This document shows, piece by piece, positions 4,619-50,981 of a DNA stretch of 50,981 nucleotides (position 1 is its first letter; each line of letters begins with the position of its first letter). The notes under the pieces were generated by a model. The model ran no database searches, was not told the DNA's origin, and worked only from the letters and a program-made list of their open reading frames with translations. A program made the position numbers and the translations under genes. The stretch is from Candidatus Methanocorpusculum faecipullorum (GTDB taxonomy: Archaea > Halobacteriota > Methanomicrobia > Methanomicrobiales > Methanocorpusculaceae), in assembly GCA_018883755.1 (NCBI GenBank), contig JAHLFR010000012.1:1-50981 (forward strand), read 5' to 3'.

Positions 4619-5365
4619 TCAGCGGCGTTTCTTGGAGTCATCCATTACAGTATCATCTTCCACAGCTTCGATAACTGCATCAGAGTCTGCACGAATTGCC
4701 ATGGACCGAGAGGTATGACCGGGGTTGTATCCGGTACCTGCAATGATTACATTATGATCCGTCGTCTTCTTCCGTTTCTGAATTGTACCGTCGGGTTGCA
4801 TCACATACTCAAACTCACCAGCTTTCAACTGCTCAACCGGAACCTCTGGTTCAGGTGCAGGTACTGGCTCAGGAGCGGGTGCTGAGATTGCATGGCGAGA
4901 TGTTCCTGCGCGCACTGGAGTTCCCGGTTGGGAACCACGCTGGGGGGCTGCACGAGGTGACGGGGCACGAACCGGTTCATCCTCAACATCAGCAATGGGA
5001 CGTCTCCCTGGTGTTGCACGGACTGGTGCTGAACGCTGAGGTGAATTCTGTCCAAAACGTCCTGCATCAGGAACTGACTCGGGAGTTTTCTGACCGAATC
5101 TCGACTCTGCCTGAACACGAGAGTGACTTCCCCGGACCTCCTCTAGCTGCATTGACAGTTTGCGGGTTACGGACTTTAAATCAAGCATCTCCTCGGTGAG
5201 ACCTTTAACCATCGCTTCAAGCTCACGAACCTTTCGTTCAAGAGCCTCGGTATTTTCAGATTTTACAGGAGCCGGAGCTGCCTCCGCACCTGCTTCATGT
5301 TTAATATTCATTTCACGTTCCTGCTCAGCAAGCTCGTGTTCTAAAAATTTCATCCTGGTATCCAT
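4619..5365 (-). CDS. Coiled-coil/low-complexity protein upstream of smc
   Basis: This protein of 248 residues has no recognised enzyme domain. Residues 1-90 are charged and helical with heptad-like spacing, including LERKVRELEAMVKGLTEEML, and so probably form a coiled coil. Residues about 90-185 are rich in Pro, Arg, Ser and Ala and look disordered. The last 60 residues form a short more ordered tail, with a YVMQPDGTIQKRKKT stretch. A TATA-like box lies at 5388-5400, about 27 nt before the ATG, which supports a leaderless start and makes this the first gene of the smc-scpA unit. A structural or SMC-linked role is inferred only from position and coiled coil. Confidence 0.7.
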   Translation of the reverse strand: MDTRMKFLEHELAEQEREMNIKHEAGAEAAPAPVKSENTEALERKVRELEAMVKGLTEEMLDLKSVTRKLSMQLEEVRGSHSRVQAESRFGQKTPESVPDAGRFGQNSPQRSAPVRATPGRRPIADVEDEPVRAPSPRAAPQRGSQPGTPVRAGTSRHAISAPAPEPVPAPEPEVPVEQLKAGEFEYVMQPDGTIQKRKKTTDHNVIIAGTGYNPGHTSRSMAIRADSDAVIEAVEDDTVMDDSKKRR

Positions 5366-5670
5366 GAGCGCAATTCTTCCTGAAAATTAATTAATAGGTT
5401 TTTCTGCGCCTATTCTATAAGAGATTTGTGGCATTGGTCAAAACAGATCACAAATCAGCTATCCGGTGCCCGAAGAAAAGATGGTAACATCAGTACTTCC
5501 CATGATGTTTTTCACGTGAACAAGCAGTGGCTTTGGCAGTACAAACACTGGGATCATCATCTGCATATTTTGTGCGGGCAATGAATCCTGTTAAAGATCA
5601 GAACTGACAGGATTGTTACAAGGAAGGATAGATCAGATCATATTCGGTATGATCCATTATGGGAGTGTAC
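5366..5670. repeat. Intergenic region with three inverted repeats
   Basis: About 300 nt lie between the rbcL terminator and the smc-operon promoter. The region holds GATTTGTG/CACAAATC (5423-5430 and 5449-5456), AATCCTGT/ACAGGATT (5584-5591 and 5607-5614) and GATCATA/TATGATC (5636-5642 and 5648-5654, 5-nt loop). The last two lie just past rbcL and could shape its transcript end. A 35-codon minus-strand frame at 5459-5566 is too weak to call as a gene. Confidence 0.5.
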
Positions 5671-5674
5671 ACAT

Positions 5675-5681
5675 AAAAAAA
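5675..5681 (-). terminator. Poly-T terminator of the RuBisCO operon
   Basis: On the minus strand a run of seven T follows the rbcL stop codon by four bases, as expected for archaeal poly-U termination. Confidence 0.6.
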
Positions 5682-5685
5682 GGAT

Positions 5686-6906
5686 TTAGGTGTTGCCCCA
5701 GAATGCAAGGGCTTTTCCAAGTTCGACATGGGTCTTGGCGTACTCATCTGCGGAAACACCAGCAAGGAAGGCATCAACCGCCTGACGCATTGCCATCGCA
5801 CCCGCGCGGGTCCCGTCAGGATGACCATGAATACCCCCGCCAGCCTGAAGAACAACCTCCGTACCAAGAGTTGCAAGCTCGGCATGAACCTTGCCGGGGT
5901 GAAGACCCCCAGATGCAACCGGAAAGACAGGGGAGATTGAATTCCACGGTTCAGTAAGGATCGTATTATCACCAAGAATTTCAGCAGCACTTCCGCCCAT
6001 CTTACCAGAGACCGTACCTGTATGGAGCTGATCTCCTCCGCACAGGCGGACAAGCTTTGCGATCGGCCGCATGGCAATACCATGATGCGGATTTCTGGTG
6101 AGTGCACCATGCATCGTACGGTGAACGTGAATCGGAACTGTGATTGCAGGATCCGCAGCGAGTGCTTGAACCGCAGAAAACCCAGCGGTCAAAACATCAA
6201 CCATCAGCATGTTTGCCCCACATTTCACAGCCTGTTCGCCAATCTCAACGATCTTGTCCCCCCCACTGGTGATATTAAGAGCATAGAGAACCGTATGCCC
6301 AGTCTCCTGTTCAGCTTTGTCAAGAGCATCCATCACTTCCTGCAGCCGATCCATCAGCGGGCAAAACTGCTGATTGGTCAGTGTTTCGTCATCTTTGATC
6401 AGATCCACTCCACCAACAGCCGCCTCATAGGCAACCGCTGCAGTGTCTTTTGGTGTCAGACCCACTTTCGGTTTAATAATAGTACCCACATGCGGACGGC
6501 GTGATACTTCGGTTCCCACTATTTTCCTGACACCCTCGATCCCAAACTTTGGACCGGTATGATGTCTCCGCAATGCATCCGGAATGTCAATATCCAAAAG
6601 CCGGACTGCCTCTAATTTGCCAAGACCAAAGAGATTTCCCGCAATGACTGAGAGATACTGCGGAATATTGCCTGGTTCAAATATCTCGTAAGGGTAGCGG
6701 ATTTTTGTCAGATATCCGCTATCAGCAGCTGGGTCTATACTCATCACCTCTCCATCGTAGGCATGAACATAGGCGGTATGATCGTTAACGGTAGAAAGAG
6801 TGGTCCACGTACCAGTTGTCTGTTCCTCAGAAATTGCTTGTGCTGCAAAATCAGCGGTGACACCGCTCTTGGGCCGGAAGTAGTAAGTTGCAATTAAATC
6901 ATCCAT
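5686..6906 (-). CDS. rbcL: Ribulose-bisphosphate carboxylase, form III
   Basis: This RuBisCO large subunit carboxylates ribulose-1,5-bisphosphate, in archaea mostly as the last step of AMP/nucleoside salvage to 3-phosphoglycerate. All key residues can be seen in the 406-residue protein. The active-site lysine is in GTIIKPKVGL (K145, K147). The carbamylated lysine and metal ligands are in GGVDLIKDDE (K171, D173, E174). HVHRTMH supplies H262, R263 and H266, and the loop-6 region has H295 and K302 (GTVSGKMGGS). The missing small subunit and the length fit form III. A strong ribosome site (AAGGAG) precedes the ATG. The R15P isomerase gene lies 15 nt upstream, so the pair is an operon. Confidence 0.95.
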   Translation of the reverse strand: MDDLIATYYFRPKSGVTADFAAQAISEEQTTGTWTTLSTVNDHTAYVHAYDGEVMSIDPAADSGYLTKIRYPYEIFEPGNIPQYLSVIAGNLFGLGKLEAVRLLDIDIPDALRRHHTGPKFGIEGVRKIVGTEVSRRPHVGTIIKPKVGLTPKDTAAVAYEAAVGGVDLIKDDETLTNQQFCPLMDRLQEVMDALDKAEQETGHTVLYALNITSGGDKIVEIGEQAVKCGANMLMVDVLTAGFSAVQALAADPAITVPIHVHRTMHGALTRNPHHGIAMRPIAKLVRLCGGDQLHTGTVSGKMGGSAAEILGDNTILTEPWNSISPVFPVASGGLHPGKVHAELATLGTEVVLQAGGGIHGHPDGTRAGAMAMRQAVDAFLAGVSADEYAKTHVELGKALAFWGNT

Positions 6907-47934: not shown

Positions 47935-49407
47935 TTACAGCCAGTGCGGCCAGGGAAGCCCGAACTGTTTTGCAAGGTCAGCAATTTCGTCATGGATTTC
48001 CCGGTTCAGTCTGAACAGGACGACAAAGTAGAGGACAGCACCGACCGCAACCGGAACAAGAACAAGGAAGATGTTGGTGAGCGGGACAAACTGCATGTAG
48101 ACGAGGATAACTGCCGCCATCAGGAGGGCACTAAGGAGTATGTGGCCTGCGGCGCGGAGATCGCAGCGGACAGAAAGATGCTGGCCCAGGTAGTATCTGA
48201 GAAGGACTGCGTTGAGGGTGATGCTGACAAGAGACGCAACCGCGGCCCCTTCAATACCAATGATTGGGATGAGCAGCACATTGAGGGCAACGTTGAGGAG
48301 GGCGGCAGAACCGCTTGCATAGAAGGACTGGCGGGCATGGTCAATGGCGCTGAGGGTCGTACCAAGGAAGACCATGAACACGTTTACGATCTGGAGCAGA
48401 AGCAGTATGGCACAGGCGGCTCCGCCAGCGGCGAACTCTGCACCGTAGAAGAAGTAGAGCAGACGGTCAGACAGAAGGATCCCGCCTGCGGCTGTCGGTA
48501 CGGCAAGCAGAAGTCCGTAGGTGATACTTTTTGTCAGAATACCTGGGATCTGGGTGAGATCGCCTTTTGCACTCCAGTTGCTGAACTTGGGGGTAAGGGT
48601 TCCTGCTATTGCAGCAGTAAGGAATGTTCCTGCGGTGGTGAGCTGCAGTGCCACCCGGTACACGCCGACGTCGCCGTTGTCCATAAAGTAGCCGATAAAG
48701 ATGGTATCTGCATAAGAGAAGATAAGAGAACCGCTGCCGATGAGAAACGCCCATATCGAATAGGTGATAAGGCTCCGGAGATGGTCTGCGGTAAATCTGG
48801 CGGGGCGGAATGTGAAGTATTTGATACAGAATATGCCGGAGATGATGATTGCGATGATGAATCCGCCAAAGAGCCCTGCAAGCGAGTAGCCAAGGAGGAC
48901 TGCGACTATCTGGATGAGGATGCGGACAAACTCATTGACGCCTGTGGCAAGGTTTCGGATGCCGACGTGACCAAGGCCGTAAACTCCGTAGGTAATCGTG
49001 TTTCCGAAGAATGCAGCGGCAAGCGCTGCGATGATCCAGGGAATGAGGTCGTAGTCCTTGAGGTCAACGAAGTAGGGGCTGATCGCAAGGAGGATCAGCG
49101 TTGAGATGATGATTAAGAGGAAACGCAGTACTGCATATGCAGTAAGATACTCGTTCTGATCTTTTCCTTCGGAGATGCGTTTGACGGCGGCACCCCCGAA
49201 TCCCGCATCGCCTATCATGTTGAAGACGCCGTAGTAGGCGAGGAAGAGGTAGTAAACGCCCATCAGATCTGCTCCGAGGAGGTGGGAGAAGAGCATGGTG
49301 GAGAGGAATCCAAAAAGGGTGACTGTAAGGGTTACGCCGAGCTGGATCATGCTCTGACGCTGGATGGGCGGGATTGCGGAGATGCGGGTTACGATGTTTC
49401 GGGGCAT
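47935..49407 (-). CDS. Oligosaccharide flippase / polysaccharide biosynthesis membrane protein
   Basis: This is a 490-residue membrane protein of the MOP/Wzx-type flippase superfamily. It moves lipid-linked sugars across the membrane for glycan or S-layer assembly. About 12-14 hydrophobic segments fill it, with the typical N-terminal SMIQLGVTLTVTLFGFLSTM and LLGADLMGVYYLFLAYYGVF. It also has SLIFSYADTIFIGYFMDNGD and the second-half start GTTLSAIDHARQSFYASG. With AglJ in the same window it suggests N-glycan export, though the two are far apart. It may start a few codons later. It converges on the esterase gene with a 4-nt gap. Confidence 0.93.
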   Translation of the reverse strand: MPRNIVTRISAIPPIQRQSMIQLGVTLTVTLFGFLSTMLFSHLLGADLMGVYYLFLAYYGVFNMIGDAGFGGAAVKRISEGKDQNEYLTAYAVLRFLLIIISTLILLAISPYFVDLKDYDLIPWIIAALAAAFFGNTITYGVYGLGHVGIRNLATGVNEFVRILIQIVAVLLGYSLAGLFGGFIIAIIISGIFCIKYFTFRPARFTADHLRSLITYSIWAFLIGSGSLIFSYADTIFIGYFMDNGDVGVYRVALQLTTAGTFLTAAIAGTLTPKFSNWSAKGDLTQIPGILTKSITYGLLLAVPTAAGGILLSDRLLYFFYGAEFAAGGAACAILLLLQIVNVFMVFLGTTLSAIDHARQSFYASGSAALLNVALNVLLIPIIGIEGAAVASLVSITLNAVLLRYYLGQHLSVRCDLRAAGHILLSALLMAAVILVYMQFVPLTNIFLVLVPVAVGAVLYFVVLFRLNREIHDEIADLAKQFGLPWPHWL

Positions 49408-49471: not shown

Positions 49472-49876
49472 TCAGGGGTGTTCCCGGGTTACAACTACCC
49501 ATTTGCCGTCTTTGCCGATGGATTTTATCTGTGCTTCTGGGTTGTCAACGAGTTTCATCCAGTCGGAGAAGAGCTGCCTGCCCATTTCGCCAAATTCTTC
49601 TTCGAGGTTCTGGGCCATCCATTCCATGTAGAGGGTGCGTTTGCTTTCTTTGAGGCTGGTTCCACATTCGTTGCAGTATTTTGCGGTGGGTATGTTGATG
49701 GTTCCGCAGGAGGGACAGACGTTGAGGAGGCTTACTCTGTAGGATACTGCTTTTCGGATCCATTCCTGTGAGGTTATGCCTTCGAGTTTTGCGGCTGTTT
49801 CAATCTGTGTTTTGAGGGTTTTCGGGAGACGGAGGAGGATCTGGTCGTCGTTTTTTTCTGCGGTTTCGTGTTCCAT
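49472..49876 (-). CDS. Ribbon-helix-helix regulator with zinc ribbon
   Basis: This 134-residue protein looks like a DNA-binding regulator. Residues 10-50 resemble a ribbon-helix-helix (QILLRLPKTLKTQIETAAKL then TSQEWIRKAVSYRVS). A Cys4 zinc ribbon follows (VCPSCGTINIPTAKYCNECG), then an acidic helical tail (LEEEFGEMGRQLFSDWMKL) that might bind partners. The ATG at 49876 is preceded by a TATA-like AAAAGATATATC and by three palindromic AGATnTATCT-type sites. It probably represses its own promoter; this is inference. Confidence 0.82.
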   Translation of the reverse strand: MEHETAEKNDDQILLRLPKTLKTQIETAAKLEGITSQEWIRKAVSYRVSLLNVCPSCGTINIPTAKYCNECGTSLKESKRTLYMEWMAQNLEEEFGEMGRQLFSDWMKLVDNPEAQIKSIGKDGKWVVVTREHP

Positions 49877-49880
49877 GTTT

Positions 49881-49927
49881 AGATGTATCTCTATTCTTTC
49901 AGATATATCTTTTTATCAGAGATATCT
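49881..49927. promoter_or_regulatory. Three spaced palindromes at the RHH/zinc-ribbon promoter
   Basis: AGATGTATCT (49881-49890), AGATATATCT (49901-49910) and AGATATCT (49920-49927) lie about 20 bp apart. The second and third are perfect palindromes and the first differs at one base. They cover the start-site and TATA region of the minus-strand gene. A GATATC also lies at 49930-49935. The spacing near two helical turns suits a cooperatively binding RHH protein. Confidence 0.6.
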
Positions 49928-50028
49928 TTGATATCGTGTGGAGAGATTTGTCTGGAAAGATAGTTTGATGTGGGAGGGTGCCAGAGATATGTTCGTGATC
50001 GTTTTGGAAAAAAATGGTCTGTCCATTA

Positions 50029-50064
50029 CTATATACTATGTACTGTACTTATGAGTACAGTACA
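50029..50064 (+). promoter_or_regulatory. TATA box and 11-bp palindrome before the second RHH gene
   Basis: A TATA box (ATATACTA, about 50030-50038) is followed by TGTACTGTACT (50039-50049) and AGTACAGTACA (50054-50064), perfect reverse complements with a 4-nt spacer. The expected transcription start lies inside the repeat, so a bound protein would block transcription. The RHH protein encoded next is the likely ligand. Confidence 0.65.
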
Positions 50065-50118
50065 GTAAGAGTAAGAAGAGGGATATTCTTTTAAAAAATA
50101 ATGAGGAGAGATGCAGAG

Positions 50119-50631
50119 ATGCCAAGACAGAATCTGTATGTAAAGGACGGACGAAGCAGGACAACGTCTATCCGGGTGAATCCTCTGCTGTATGATGCGG
50201 TGCGGCAGCAGGGAGGGAATGTTGAGGATCTGTTTGAGACGGCACTGTCTGCGTATCTGCATGTGCCGCCGGAGGTGTTAGTGCGGCTGCACAGGGAGGA
50301 GGAGCTTCTGGAGCACTGTTATGATGCGATCCGTGCGGGGCAGGAGGAGGCTCTTGCCAAAGAGCTTGCACGACTGGAAGGTGAGAGACAGGAGCGGTCC
50401 GAGGCGGATGCTGCACGGCGGGAGATGCTTGCTGCGGTGTATGCGGAGATGTGTTCGTTTCCGGAGTCGGGACGGAGACGTGTTGAGCAGGATATTGCCG
50501 CTGGCGGGGAGTGTCTGTATGAGGAGAAGCTGGTGATGCTGCTGATGAGGCGGCTGCATTATCCGGAGAATACGATTCGGGAGGCGGTGCGGGTGATTGT
50601 GCGGAACGGGTGGAGGGTGCCGGAGGAGTAG
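50119..50631 (+). CDS. Ribbon-helix-helix-like protein with helical C-terminus
   Basis: This protein of 170 residues has, near its N-terminus, RSRTTSIRVNPLLYDAV and a following helix GNVEDLFETALSAYL. The strand-helix-helix layout fits an RHH DNA-binding domain. Residues 70-120 form a very charged likely coiled coil (REEELLEHCYDAIRAGQEEA). The C-terminal helices include MLLMRRLHYPENTIREAVRV. The ATG at 50119 is preferred because GAGGAG (50103-50108) lies at ribosome-site distance; ATG at 50101 is an alternative that would add six residues. It is divergent from the other RHH gene and is G-rich on this strand. Confidence 0.75.
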   Translation: MPRQNLYVKDGRSRTTSIRVNPLLYDAVRQQGGNVEDLFETALSAYLHVPPEVLVRLHREEELLEHCYDAIRAGQEEALAKELARLEGERQERSEADAARREMLAAVYAEMCSFPESGRRRVEQDIAAGGECLYEEKLVMLLMRRLHYPENTIREAVRVIVRNGWRVPEE

Positions 50632-50721: not shown

Positions 50722-50981
50722 TTAATATGCAAAAATCTTACACCGCCCTTGGATAATAACATAACTTGGATCTATCTCGTGAATTAAATTAGCGATTACA
50801 GTTGGATCATCGGGCAGATGATAAGTACAAATCGAAAGTCTTGGATGATCACGGGCAGTTGTATTTCTCGCTCCGGATAACATGTCACGCTCAGCTCCTT
50901 CAATATCTGCTTTGATAAAATCTACTTTTGGGATAGAATGCTGAGAAACAAAGTCGTCTAATGTAATGCATTGTACTGAGT
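50722..50981 (-). CDS. FkbM-family methyltransferase, C-terminal fragment
   Basis: The gene is cut by the right edge of the window, so its start is missing. The 85 residues visible read like the end of an FkbM methyltransferase: CITLDDFV, then the SAM-fold strand VDFIKADIEGAERDMLSGA, RLSICTYHLPDD and PSYVIIQGRCKIFAY with a TAA stop. FkbM enzymes O-methylate sugars or other metabolites and are common in surface-glycan gene clusters, which fits the flippase nearby. The DNA is clearly richer in A+T than the neighbouring genes, hinting at transfer. Confidence 0.85.
   Translation of the reverse strand, partial: SVQCITLDDFVSQHSIPKVDFIKADIEGAERDMLSGARNTTARDHPRLSICTYHLPDDPTVIANLIHEIDPSYVIIQGRCKIFAY

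Follow-up and report, generated by a model that had tools for sequence, protein, structure and literature searches.

A dispersed intergenic palindrome with invariant arms in one Methanocorpusculum clade is a candidate site for a dimeric DNA-binding protein

The window, which is the whole 50,981-bp stretch of Candidatus Methanocorpusculum faecipullorum DNA that was analysed, carries close to its right-hand end a short palindrome set among small putative regulatory genes and two glycan-related genes. The features that matter here are listed below, with coordinates in the window and strand where one applies.

47935-49407, minus strand: polysaccharide flippase-type gene (PF01943, 5e-21)
49472-49876, minus strand: divergent 134-aa gene with a weak RHH-type N-terminus and a zinc ribbon
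49899-49933, no strand: AGATATATCT / ATCAGAGATATCTTTGAT repeats before the divergent gene, partly kept in the related genomes G004 and G001
50020-50038, no strand: left flank of the palindrome, a degenerate (CTA)n tract (from the alignment of 16 copies and a covariance-model match at 50020-50097)
50039-50064, no strand: palindrome core of 26 bp, with 11-bp arms and the centre TATG
50065-50097, no strand: right flank, a purine tract AGTAAGAGTAAGAAGAGGG followed by a T-rich stretch
50119-50631, plus strand: 170-aa ORF, RHH-like by eye at its N-terminus (TTSIRV, then two helices), with a long helical C-terminus
50722-50979, minus strand: FkbM-type methyltransferase gene (PF05050, 2.6e-11), cut by the end of the window

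The glycan-related neighbors that the initial annotation had pointed out are confirmed by the profile matches of the flippase and FkbM genes. The divergent gene, which had been described as an RHH gene, shows weak RHH-type matches (CopG_antitoxin, 0.015; the Arc-like phrog_582, 3e-4) and also has a zinc ribbon (PF13240, 2e-6). As had been noticed, it is preceded by a different palindrome, the AGATATATCT-type repeats, which are unrelated to the GTAC-rich core and are a candidate operator for this zinc-ribbon gene. The ORF downstream of the core had been taken for a second RHH gene and does look like one by eye, but it has no significant match to an RHH profile in Pfam, NCBIfam or PHROGs: its best Pfam match is CcdA (E 0.12), its best PHROGs match (0.065) is to a family of no known function, and it has no match in NCBIfam. 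A low-confidence structure model (pLDDT below 50 over residues 1-21) has helices at residues 22-30 and 35-47, with no structural match in the PDB at E 0.001, where its sequence has no relative either. No toxin partner was identified beside this ORF. A viral or plasmid origin was considered and rejected, as the ORF has no relative among phages, plasmids and viral contigs within the sensitivity of the search, and the DNA upstream of it has no match in plasmids. The start codon is likely 50119, rather than 50101, because this is the only start (ATG or GTG before PRQN) common to both relatives, G001 and G004. The palindrome thus ends 54 bp before the ORF.

The palindrome itself was found exactly where the initial annotation had placed it. 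Its arms, TGTACTGTACT (50039-50049) and AGTACAGTACA (50054-50064), are 100% complementary, and the part that is invariant among copies, GTACTGTACT/AGTACAGTAC, occupies 50040-50063. The tetramer GTAC starts at core positions 0, 5, 15 and 20; restriction avoidance was rejected as an explanation, GTAC occurring 215 times in the window when 212 are expected. The TATA-like TACTATATA at 50027-50035 is not conserved in either G004 or G001. By itself, the presence of such a repeat at some point in 51 kb carries no significance: if perfect inverted repeats with arms of 10 bp or longer and loops of up to 12 are counted, the window has them at two distinct places versus 0-3 per shuffled window (20 dinucleotide shuffles), and 11-bp arms were reached in 2 of these 20. 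Within 100 bp upstream of one gene, the expectation is about 2e-4, which is a rough figure assuming independent bases and loops of 0-8. When the window was searched with the palindrome as a pattern, allowing up to three mismatches, there was one match, and none of 100 shuffles had any. The decisive evidence is the recurrence of the palindrome elsewhere in the genome.

We ran the search for further copies that had been suggested as a check. In the window's own genome (G000, 80% complete), GTACTGTAC-n6-GTACAGTAC with up to three mismatches was found at three places, each exact, when about 5e-8 copies of the 20-nt arms GTACTGTACT-n4-AGTACAGTAC are expected by chance. Among 25 congener genomes, the core was found in seven, at 16 places with up to two mismatches (15 exact, one with a single mismatch), and carriers have one to four copies each; a reversed control pattern gave one match, in G002. 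At the level of the order (232 genomes), there were two further carriers, G209 with an exact core and G216 with two mismatches, and the control pattern matched in 2 of the 232. In a collection of named genomes, G209 is Methanospirillum stamsii, and the named carriers within the genus are M. petauri and the MAGs HAC020.1 and Hm464_bin161, of which the latter was deposited under Methanocalculaceae. The 3' part of the G000 purL gene has a close relative in 6 of the 25 genomes, all six of which have the core, and the repeat therefore marks one Methanocorpusculum clade; the seventh carrier is G001, which is 73% complete. This clade probably corresponds to host clade 1, described from birds, marsupials and one monkey (PMC10035134). 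The main text of that paper uses "palindrom" and "intergenic" 0 times and "repeat" once, and no such repeat is named in the titles and abstract openings searched, which does not show that it is unpublished.

Copies share more than the core. Read in the orientation set by the flanks, a copy consists of a T-rich stretch and (CTA)n, followed by GTACTGTACT-nnnn-AGTACAGTAC, then a purine tract similar to AGTAAGATAAGAAGAGG and frequently a T-run, and this order, with (CTA)n on one side and purines on the other, is alike among copies; the window copy has a degenerate form of the CTA tract. The copies lie between the called ORFs of plausible genes, ORFs having been called mechanically, as expected of extragenic palindromes. 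Two G019 copies adjoin (CTA)n tracts of about 38 units or more in which contigs break off (the starts of C9 and C12, the ends of C3 and C5); we interpret these tracts as two arrays that were not spanned in the assembly. A covariance model built from the 16 copies and run on 25 genomes, with 150 of 190-549 candidates scored per genome, gave 56-93 bits for the 16 intact copies and at most 30.6 bits for any non-intact match (better strand per place). Within that scored set, two broken G019 copies (at loci c and e, see below) reached 30-31 bits, and weaker matches of 24-29 bits were seen in G017 (two), G013, G012 and G021. Both weak G017 matches lie in near-duplicate regions (L176 on C10, L177 on C7) close to contig ends, which contain (ATT)n, a core of the form GTACTAGTACTAAGTACAGTAC, a tract rich in GAA, several microsatellites and small ORFs that are RHH-like by eye. 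One of the two matches is about 150 bp from such an ORF, for which Pfam returned Mus7 at 0.006 alone. In G013, the weak match comprises one half of a core, flanked by (TTA)n and (GA)n.

Orthologous copies allow conservation to be measured. Four loci have two to four orthologous copies each, the broken G019 copies being left out. Over the 11 pairs that these give, 0 of 220 arm positions differ; the pairs are not independent of one another and come from a fixed-spacing pattern search with up to two mismatches that favors intact arms. In the same pairs, the 4-bp centre differs at 19 of 44 positions, the left flank at 63 of 209 (30%) and the right flank at 155 of 374 (41%). The arms are thus invariant while the centre is free. 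This pattern bears on whether the core is an RNA hairpin, that is, a transcription terminator or a structured 3'-untranslated element, as the position of several copies at gene 3' ends near U-rich stretches might suggest. However, an invariant stem with a variable loop is the opposite of what would be expected if structure alone mattered, and double-sided changes were found in 0 of 11 stem pairs, although 9 of the 11 never vary and are uninformative either way. Moreover, a search of Rfam at E 0.5 returned nothing, terminator-like sites were absent, and the copies at a, C14 and x (see below) lie 5' of genes. We rejected this candidate and consider it scarcely credible. Invariant arms, a free centre and no covariation fit a dimeric protein that reads the duplex better than they fit an RNA hairpin.

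The 16 copies are spread over nine loci in the seven genomes. At locus a the core precedes the 50119 ORF, in G000, G001 and G004, and at locus C14, G004 has a second core before what by eye is a decayed copy of the start of that ORF. Locus b lies 3' of purL, between convergent genes; it is filled in G000 and G021, and the core is missing in G004, G007, G017 and G019. Locus c is occupied in G004, G007, G000 and G017; in G004 the core lies 23 bp past the stop codon of an RHH_1 gene (PF01402, 4e-6), the order is alike in G007, and remnants of this gene lie beside the locus in G000 and also in G019, where the core is broken. Locus d, between a codirectional symporter gene and a gene of no assigned function, is filled in G017 and at the equivalent place in G019. 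Locus e, between convergent MFS and ABC genes, has a core in G017, which in G019 is split by an ISH3-type element; in G000, G004, G007 and G021, no core follows the orthologous MFS gene on its 3' side. Locus f is 3' of a thymidylate-synthase-like gene (PF00303) in G019, and no core was found at this gene in G000, G004 and G007; in G017 (L138, C16), a varied GTAC hairpin, GTACG-ataata-CGTAC, with pyrimidine and purine arms, stands in place of the core. The remaining two are locus C22b in G004, 3' of a xanthine/uracil permease gene, and locus x on contig C10 of G007, which, provided that the short ORF L135:4302-4673 is not a real gene, has divergent genes on its two sides. Thus, six of the nine loci (b, c, d, e, f and C22b) are 3' of at least one neighbor, and only a, C14 and x are solely 5'.

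The genes next to the copies (purL, transporters, a ferredoxin-domain gene, the permease and unassigned ORFs) share no common pathway, which is a point against the explanation favored below. They also bear on the proposal that the two divergent genes form a switch for surface-glycan expression, which drew on adjacency at the window locus alone: the right-hand neighbors differ in G004, where they are an ORF that is iron-dehydrogenase-like by eye and a PEP-mutase/nucleotidyltransferase gene, and the other copies lie by unrelated genes. Outside the window locus, the palindrome shows no link to glycan genes.

Variable occupancy at loci b, e and f, together with an oriented element that has common flanks, is what a small non-autonomous repeat would produce, spread by mobility or recombination in the manner of MITE or REP elements and bound by no protein, its arms being identical through recent spread and conversion. 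T-runs flank both sides at several copies, two G019 copies have large (CTA)n arrays, and at locus b, by eye, core-less G004 reads TTTTTTGCA where G021 has the core and its flanks followed by TTTTTTGCA. However, the alignment beyond the core at locus b is poor, no clean empty site was found, and a target duplication could not be demonstrated. Copies number only one to four per genome, and in orthologous copies the centre and flanks have diverged by 30-43% while the arms have not, so that spread was not recent at those loci. On balance, we view a repeat of this kind as unlikely, while acknowledging that homogenization or recent spread could make the arms identical without any binding.

A specific relationship with insertion sequences was also considered, in which the core would be a preferred landing site or a footprint of the ISH3 family. 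The element in the centre of the locus e core in G019 (L126 on G019:C2, approximately 5190-6453) is an ISH3-family insertion sequence of 1264 bp, with a match to NF033541 (1.5e-36) below the curated cut-off and a transposase broken by an in-frame stop. A related element on plasmid pMETHO01 of Methanomethylovorans hollandica (L189) has the same ends, CAGTACTTCGCTAATT, and sits in a GTAC-containing site, AATGTACAT. That element has a direct 5-bp duplication, AATGT, whereas the 5-bp flanks in G019 are inverted (TCAAA/TTTGA), which simple insertion does not give; one idea is that they arose by inverted-repeat correction. In addition, a single core is occupied among those seen, and the core spacing is constant, unlike that of excision footprints. 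Relatives of the transposase were found in 52 plasmid records, of which 2 were examined and 1 had readable ends, and in no viral contig. A landing site or footprint is accordingly very improbable.

Another reading is that the downstream RHH-like protein represses its own promoter from the palindrome, in which case the other copies would be its regulon or leftovers of lost RHH genes. Besides the 54-bp distance and the cores near the RHH_1 gene of locus c and the decayed ORF start of C14, GTAC-type palindromes lie before small ORFs 43 bp upstream in G216, 49 bp upstream in the viral contig L200 and 42 bp upstream in M. stamsii. The ORFs in G216 and L200 share 40% identity; both look RHH-like by eye, follow a (CT)n tract and lack Pfam support, and the M. 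stamsii ORF has no match in Pfam or PHROGs. In L200 (IMGVR_UViG_3300005326_000104, 1364-1988), (CT)n, a GTAC palindrome and the RHH-like ORF follow one another, an arrangement alike in G216. A link between GTAC palindromes and RHH-type genes is thus plausible on these sequence grounds. However, the 50119 product has no detectable relation to the L200 protein, and its 21% identity to the G216 protein appears in a multiple alignment only. No relative of the L200 protein was found in other viral contigs or in phages and plasmids. Viral contigs contain no exact core; with a spacing of 2-14, 19 stretches matched, many of which may be chance matches. None of the 19 has (CTA)n and purine flanks within 30 bases on each side, short TAGTAG-like stretches being seen at L201, L204 and L208 and (CT)n at L200, and the ORFs downstream are RHH-like by eye at L200 (49 bp) and L196 (72 bp).

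A further objection is that site and protein do not consistently co-occur. Among 61 genomes searched, the 50119 ORF is intact in G000 and G004 only (83% for the G004 orthologue); it has one in-frame TAG in G001, is a 44-aa remnant in G007 and was not found in G017 (95% complete), G019 (96%) or G021 (78%). Perfect or near-perfect cores nevertheless persist in the last four genomes. With an intact ORF in two of seven core carriers, the 50119 product cannot be the sole reader. Protein binding as such is compatible with the invariant arms, the free centre, the lack of covariation, the position before the ORF and the similar palindromes 42-49 bp before small ORFs; the palindrome is, however, not exclusive to this promoter, since there are 16 copies at nine loci in seven genomes. 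A dispersed site is preferred to a private operator because most loci lie 3' of some gene, which an operator role leaves unexplained. We thus regard autorepression by the downstream protein as somewhat unlikely, although an operator role at the window promoter is plausible from the sequence.

The explanation that we favor, with moderate confidence, is that the palindrome represents one occurrence of an intergenic element that is dispersed and oriented and whose core is a candidate site for a dimer. This element, of about 75 bp, comprises (CTA)n, the core GTACTGTACT-n4-AGTACAGTAC, a purine tract and often a T-run, and is present at one to four copies per genome in one Methanocorpusculum clade. 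The core would act as duplex DNA, its GTAC half-sites being read by a dimer that ignores the centre; since GTAC starts at four core positions, two dimers per core may be accommodated. Identity of the arms would be maintained by selection for binding or by homogenization between copies. In the window, the copy could serve as an operator or roadblock for the 50119 ORF, where a putative protein bound 54 bp before the start codon could block transcription. Where the 50119 product is missing, the reader would be a different dimeric protein of this clade, whether of RHH type or of some other type. A bolder version, which we consider quite unlikely, extends this to a module of site and RHH-type protein in Methanomicrobiales and their viruses. 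GTAC palindromes next to pyrimidine microsatellites would be fixed chromosomal sites for small RHH-type proteins acting as dimers, which would be recurrently acquired and lost in the vicinity of these sites, with a logic like that of parS and SegB that serves chromosome organization or silencing rather than one promoter.

How does this element compare to known systems? In autoregulated RHH repressors and antitoxins of the Arc, CopG and RelB type, as before the RHH-like ORF here, a palindrome lies shortly before the gene. In our case, however, the core additionally occurs at further loci and in genomes that lack the ORF, and no toxin partner was identified beside it. The archaeal RHH protein SegB has been described to bind palindromic sites (PMC9178275). 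The likeness to parS or SegB sites, which are multi-copy fixed sites for dimeric proteins, lies in a few near-identical chromosomal palindromes with fixed arms. REP palindromes, described as widespread in bacteria and archaea (PMC12306157), are likewise short, dispersed, intergenic and oriented by their flanks, but they are defined by many copies per genome, whereas the seven carriers have one to four, and the present element differs in its invariant arms, free centre and (CTA)n tract. Like MITEs, it is short, dispersed, terminally symmetric and variable in occupancy; unlike them, it has only 4 bp between its arms, no proven target duplication and no autonomous partner that we could find.

Should the core be bound by a protein, this reader would belong to the DNA-binding proteins of a gut-methanogen clade and could be searched for in the cultured M. 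petauri, with the fixed arms and free centre providing a bait and a negative control. Should the core instead be a repeat, it would be of very small size and associated with a trinucleotide microsatellite that expands past 100 bp, which we judge, from a literature not exhaustively covered, to be unusual for an archaeon.
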